64,000 nt of DNA from Deltaproteobacteria bacterium (GTDB lineage Bacteria; Myxococcota_A; UBA9160; UBA4427), in the NCBI GenBank assembly GCA_002719955.1, contig PBFW01000019.1, positions 1 through 64,000 of the forward strand, written 5' to 3'. The notes under the pieces were generated by a model. The model did not search any database. It worked only from the letters and a program-made list of their open reading frames with translations, and was not told where the DNA came from. Positions 2,183 through 2,734 of the stretch are shown in pieces. The translations under genes and the position numbers were made by a program. Position 1 is the stretch's first letter. Every line of letters starts with the position of its first letter.

Positions 2183-2734
2183 TCAGCGATCGCCTGCGGT
2201 GGCGCAGAGCTGGTCGATGATCACGTCGATCATCGGAGTCAACTTCGCGGCGACGGCCTCGTCCGAACGATCGAGATAGTCCGAAGGCACGATCACGAGT
2301 GGCAGCGCACCCATGCCGTAGAGCCGGGCATGAGTGCGCGCGGCTTGTTCGAAGGGCTCGGTCACGAAGGTTAGACTGGGGGTGCCCTGCTGCTCGAGAT
2401 GAACTGCGTCGAGCAAACTGCCCGACGTGCAGGAGCCTCATTTAGCGAGGCCGTTGATCACTCCGTCGTAGCCACTGAATCGTTCGATCATGTCGGCGTC
2501 CGCGGGCCGAGAAAGAACCGGCTTGATTTCGAGATGGAAATCCCGGACACCCAGACGGTCGTGCAAGGCGCGCTCGAGAACGCGTGTGTAGCCCGGGAAG
2601 TGTGGGCCCGTGAGGTGCTCCTGCTCGTTGCTCAAGAAACCGATTCTTCGAATTTCTCGGGGGTCGCGTACCCTGGGTGCGAGCTGCGCGATATCGGAAT
2701 CGTCGTGCCCTCTCGGGTCAATGAGTTCGATCAT
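2183..2734 (-). CDS. UGSC family selenoprotein (in-frame TGA at 2438..2440 read as Sec), ~183 aa
   Basis: Two same-frame minus ORF pieces joined by one TGA: MIELIDPRGHDDSD...GYDGVINGLAK-(TGA)-GSCTSGSLLDAVHLEQQGTPSLTFVTEPFEQAARTHARLYGMGALPLVIVPSDYLDRSDEAVAAKLTPMIDVIIDQLCATAGDR*. SECIS-like hairpin directly downstream. Confidence 0.85.
2404..2432 (-). promoter_or_regulatory. Putative bacterial SECIS element
   Basis: RNA 3' of UGA: CUG-CA(bulge)-CGUCGGGCA-GUU-UGCUCGACG-CAG; 9 contiguous bp (one G-U) plus 3 bp below a 2-nt bulge; GUU apical loop 20-22 nt downstream of the U of UGA. Confidence 0.75.

Follow-up and report, generated by a model that had tools for sequence, protein, structure and literature searches.

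A conserved hairpin after an in-frame UGA is very probably a bacterial SECIS element in a divergent UGSC selenoprotein gene

In this study, we characterized a hairpin that lies 3′ of an in-frame UGA codon in a 64,000-nt stretch of a deltaproteobacterial genome (contig PBFW01000019.1, positions 1 to 64,000; hereafter the window). Judging from sequence comparisons, the hairpin is very probably, at roughly 96%, a bacterial SECIS element for SelB-directed insertion of selenocysteine (Sec) into a protein of the UGSC family. This reading is preferred because the UGA is conserved, the stem covaries, the loop GU is kept beyond the need of coding and is absent from cysteine (Cys) homologues, and the genome holds the Sec machinery; on these grounds the term "SECIS-like", used in a first-pass annotation of the window, was apt. 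In the proposed mechanism, the hairpin in the mRNA of the UGSC gene, with its loop 19 nt past the UGA, would act as the SECIS. SelB carrying Sec-tRNA(Sec) would bind the GU-containing apical loop and deliver selenocysteine to the UGA, and the product would be a protein of 183 residues with a Sec-Gly-Ser-Cys motif, presumably redox-active, and not a truncated one of 98 residues. The element fits the published model of such structures and is a new example of an already known kind of SECIS.

The UGSC gene occupies positions 2183–2734 on the minus strand and, with its UGA (2438–2440) read as Sec, encodes 183 amino acids, Sec being residue 99 and the terminator being a TGA at 2185–2183. Open frames of 316 and 84 codons flank the UGA, and read-through translation gives Lys-Sec-Gly-Ser-Cys, which contains the U/C-G-S-C motif of the UGSC family (U99 G S C). 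The Pfam UGSC model PF24696 matches the read-through protein over almost its full length (residues 1–175; E = 1.1e-28; 100.9 bits vs. a gathering cut-off of 25 bits). The sole NCBIfam match is NF041046 (E = 1.1e-21), a narrower UGSC equivalog for which the score of 77.4 bits lies below the curated cut-off of 125 bits; this cut-off defines the equivalog and not the Pfam family, and the window protein is too divergent for the former. The record of UGSC selenoproteins goes back at least to the Global Ocean Sampling (GOS) survey of 2008, which described a UGSC family with 255 Sec and 21 Cys members and in which SECIS elements were sought after the UGA (PMC2398784), and they are present in current reviews (PMC13188914). 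By its sequence, the window gene is a member of this same family with the same Sec-Gly-Ser-Cys motif, and represents a divergent subfamily. A selenoprotein gene is confirmed where ordinary gene calling would end at the UGA. At gathering thresholds, Rfam identified one tRNA and nothing else in the window.

Numbered from the U of UGA as position 1 (window position 2440), the minus-strand sequence 3′ of the UGA, GGCUCCUGCACGUCGGGCAGUUUGCUCGACGCAG, forms nine contiguous base pairs between positions 14–22 and 26–34 (C-G, G-C, U-A, C-G, G-C, G-U, G-C, C-G, and A-U). The 5′ arm (CGUCGGGCA; 2419–2427) and the 3′ arm (UGCUCGACG; 2407–2415), both defined by folding and covariation, enclose a GUU apical loop (G23, U24, and U25; 2416–2418), for which GU conservation, an AGT serine codon and the register of Escherichia coli fdhF speak. 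In the fold of the single window sequence, CUG at positions 9–11 (2430–2432) can close with CAG at 35–37 (2404–2406) beneath a 2-nt bulge, which gives a total span of exactly 2404–2432. The first-pass annotation had reported this sequence, these coordinates and this lower closure correctly, the strand being minus, and its nine contiguous pairs with one G-U and a GUU loop were reproduced by RNAfold. It had also placed the loop 20–22 nt from the U of UGA; the figure holds when counted from the last base of the codon, and from the U itself the distance is 22–24 nt, so that the value was off by two. It took the loop G and U to lie at about the distance needed in bacterial SECIS elements. In the E. 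coli fdhF SECIS, G23-U24 stand at exactly the same distance from the UGA; by this numbering, positions 23 and 24 are presumably those of the fdhF bases required by SelB.

The energy of a 45-nt segment was −17.6 kcal/mol by RNAfold (z = −2.4 against dinucleotide shuffles, with 5 of 200 shuffles as good), and that of the 21-nt hairpin by itself was −12.6 kcal/mol. Of the 1510 TGA triplets that the window contains on its two strands, 10 (0.7%) are followed by an equally good hairpin by the same criteria; among these ten, only the UGA of the UGSC gene lies between long open frames. By these criteria, no such hairpin follows the terminator TGA of the UGSC gene or that of its neighbour gene. As a lone sequence, the hairpin is only modestly unusual, and since about 0.7% of the TGAs in the window match by chance, comparative evidence must decide.

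UGSC genes were found in 48 of 61 genomes comprising the source genome and its relatives, nearly all with one TGA, and the same holds phylum-wide. In the source genome, seven UGSC genes, namely the window gene and six further copies, each contain a single in-frame TGA. The genome also contains a decayed copy (L024/L079; contig C28, about 16826–17319) with two TGA and one TAG codons in frame and no UGSC motif, which is probably a pseudogene. Orthologues of the window gene, all with TGA, are 71–76% identical in three genomes and 41–45% identical in three more. Of the 379 genomes of the phylum that were searched, only 7 contain its subfamily, recognizable by TSGSLLD after the Cys of UGSC. Motif-bearing sequences from the source genome, relatives, the phylum and plasmids were aligned without gaps (129 Sec and 11 Cys forms), many of them being related, so that sequence counts are not independent events. 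At the UGA position, homologues carry TGA or, in the 11 Cys forms, TGC or TGT, the set having been collected by searching for U or C there. Of the Cys forms, two belong to a same-genus genome, one is from another part of the phylum, and the rest are plasmid-borne in actinobacteria, proteobacteria and haloarchaea. The same-genus relative (G008) has its two Cys-form genes, L030 and L080, on contig C265 and a Sec form, L081, elsewhere; the pair could reflect recent replacement, transfer or contamination. A Sec-form gene (L168) is carried by the conjugative IncP plasmid p2-T1 of Acidovorax sp. T1, where its annotation is that of a short hypothetical protein stopping near the TGA. One UGSC subfamily (L022, L064, L066, L067, L069, L070, L137, L143, L144, and L155) has threonine at the loop codon and CGG or CCG in place of GU in the loop, with the TGA conserved. 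No UGSC relatives were found in phage and viral collections.

Across 55 distinct elements, 86.8% of stem cells are paired vs. 76.3% after shuffling of the 3′ letters. Double, i.e., compensatory, changes occur in 40 cells vs. 10.8 in shuffles, none of 500 of which reached as high. The covariation score is likewise higher than in any of 500 shuffles (0.302 vs. 0.114), and shifting the partner by one to three columns abolishes the signal. The inner six pairs were predicted independently by RNAalifold. Pairs 18–30, 19–29 and 21–27 each switch pair type 12–14 times on a tree inferred without the hairpin codons; as this tree was built quickly and its branches are long, these counts are rough. As follows from the pairs, the stem would dictate which residues occur together at Sec+6 and Sec+9: Cys or Trp with His, Arg with Arg, and Gly or Ser with Leu.

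The source genome encodes a tRNA-Sec with a UCA anticodon, SelB of nearly whole length, SelA and SelD, and thus has the selA, selB, selC and selD genes expected where bacterial SECIS elements are used. Formate dehydrogenase, considered as a second kind of Sec gene, showed no stop within the matches. In bacterial SECIS elements, a G occupies one of the first two loop positions and is mostly followed by G or U; the bSECIS criteria are a loop of 3–9 nt, a stem of 4–16 bp, G within the first two loop bases, a spacing of 16–37 nt and an energy of at most −7.5 kcal/mol (PMC13188914). The window hairpin, with a 3-nt GUU loop, 9 bp, 19 nt and −12.6 kcal/mol, lies within all of these limits, and conservation and covariation are seen in Sec and not in Cys homologues. 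It also fits the N1-G-U-N-N2 pattern of the bSECISearch model with A-U as N1-N2, without any essential difference (PMC13188914). The E. coli fdhF SECIS, whose loop G and U are needed for SelB binding and whose type has a bulged U in the upper stem (PMC8704476), resembles the window element in that a G and a U stand unpaired side by side in the loop, which an A-U pair can close. Unlike that of fdhF, the window stem is longer and continuous; there is no bulged U in its upper stem, where position 17 is a paired C and 14–22/26–34 is unbroken. Since it lacks the bulged U, the window element might fail when tried with E. coli SelB.

A coding-region hairpin may also arise from the protein it encodes, and a conserved Thr-Ser-x-Ser-x-x-Asp motif does overlie the stem, so the structure might be a functionless by-product of that motif in a GC-rich genome. 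We compared the genes with a synonymous null in which each protein was kept and codons were redrawn by the genes' own usage. Over the 8-bp stem 15–22/26–33, 83 distinct Sec elements form a mean of 7.25 pairs vs. 4.74 ± 0.15 in recodings; the 11 Cys homologues also pair slightly above the null (5.55 vs. 4.56; z = 2.4), as a by-product might. Among the 124 distinct Sec sequences, however, 93% match the bSECIS model, against only 13% of recodings of the same proteins (21% at most in any of 20 recoded sets) and 3 of the 11 Cys homologues. If the loop must also begin with GG or GU, the rates are 90% for Sec sequences, 4% for recodings and 0 for Cys homologues; nine of the 124 Sec sequences fall outside the bSECIS model, and four of the nine retain GU. 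The loop GU is found in 72 of 83 distinct Sec elements vs. none of the 11 Cys homologues. All 66 distinct Sec elements that encode serine at the loop codon write it with the rare AGU (AGT), compared with 19 of 410 serines elsewhere in the genes, and Cys homologues with serine at that site use AGC, TCG or TCC; the same serine is thus AGU with Sec and never AGU in the Cys homologues collected. Compensatory changes, moreover, alter residues on both sides of the stem, and within the window clade (7 sequences), codon identity at equal residues reaches 84% inside the element, against 56% on its upstream and 54% on its downstream side. The first-pass annotation had made its case depend on conservation and covariation of the hairpin in Sec orthologues and on Cys homologues not keeping it equally well, and the comparisons came out in its favour on both counts. 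The hairpin is clearly genuine and subject to selection, and an origin as a mere by-product of the protein motif is very unlikely. By the coding-aware test, selection acts on this coding-region SECIS independently of the protein.

Two further explanations concern the UGA itself. The codon could be a genuine stop or a sequencing error, with the downstream frame a remnant, a view for which the missed NCBIfam equivalog cut-off and the fragmented assembly (77 contigs) might be cited; the same TGA, however, is present in more than 100 homologues from many genomes, with conserved protein beyond it and Cys in others, which leaves this explanation with a negligible probability. Alternatively, UGA might be generally reassigned or suppressed, e.g., as Trp or Gly, with the hairpin serving in pausing or attenuation. 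Hairpins inside coding regions can indeed pause ribosomes. Yet UGA terminates both the partner gene described below and the UGSC gene, in each case lacking the hairpin, and the genome encodes a tRNA-Sec. The GU loop is missing where Cys is used, and only TGA or Cys occurs at this position in the collected homologues, for which U or C was the search term. General reassignment is accordingly as improbable as a stop or an error, and SelB-directed Sec insertion at a SECIS remains the explanation that we favour.

Directly upstream of the UGSC gene, on the minus strand, lies a partner gene (2731–3900; predicted start) whose stop and the UGSC start share 4 nt (ATGA). One query recovered members of this conserved family of approximately 360 aa at 53 loci; at every one the gene adjoins UGSC on the same strand, lying upstream of it in 45 cases and downstream in 8. 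Apparent fusions of the two genes occur at L129 and L046, with one frame running off its contig. The partner protein had no match in Pfam or NCBIfam, and PDB sequence searches with UGSC and partner profiles returned chance-level matches only. Structure models were confident (mean pLDDT of 89 for UGSC and 85 for the partner) but gave no convincing relative in fold searches, with none at all for the partner. The UGSC model is alpha/beta, and in the better-ranked half of its matches (flavodoxin-like and others) TM-scores do not exceed about 0.5; no function was assigned to either protein from the fold matches.

A lead of another kind came from hhalign, which aligned UGSC with the Sec domain of GrdB/PrdB, the selenoprotein B of glycine/proline reductase (PF07355 and the Sec domain after it), over 68 columns with their Sec-x-x-Cys motifs in register (probability 81%; pairwise E = 1.2e-5); no Pfam GRDB match was found in UGSC. 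The two also have similar SECIS loops within the same lineage. Homology between UGSC and GrdB/PrdB is suggestive only. We lean toward the view that UGSC is one subunit of a two-component enzyme, with the ~360-aa neighbour as its regular partner and UGSC itself a cut-down relative of the GrdB/PrdB Sec domain; such an enzyme, if real, is so far undescribed, and the regular partner and the GrdB/PrdB likeness provide a concrete way in. Sister genomes carry PrdB/GrdB-like selenoprotein genes (Sec-Pro-x-Cys; L190–L201), which gene finders would truncate at the TGA and which have SECIS hairpins of their own, with either a GUG triloop at 18 nt or a GGUCG-type loop. These loops resemble that of UGSC, as would be expected if one SelB reads all of them. 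Farther upstream of the UGSC gene in the window, genes for a flavin oxidoreductase, a glyoxalase-like protein, an amidohydrolase and an amidase lie on the minus strand (4250–9963), a group that could possibly form a degradation cluster.
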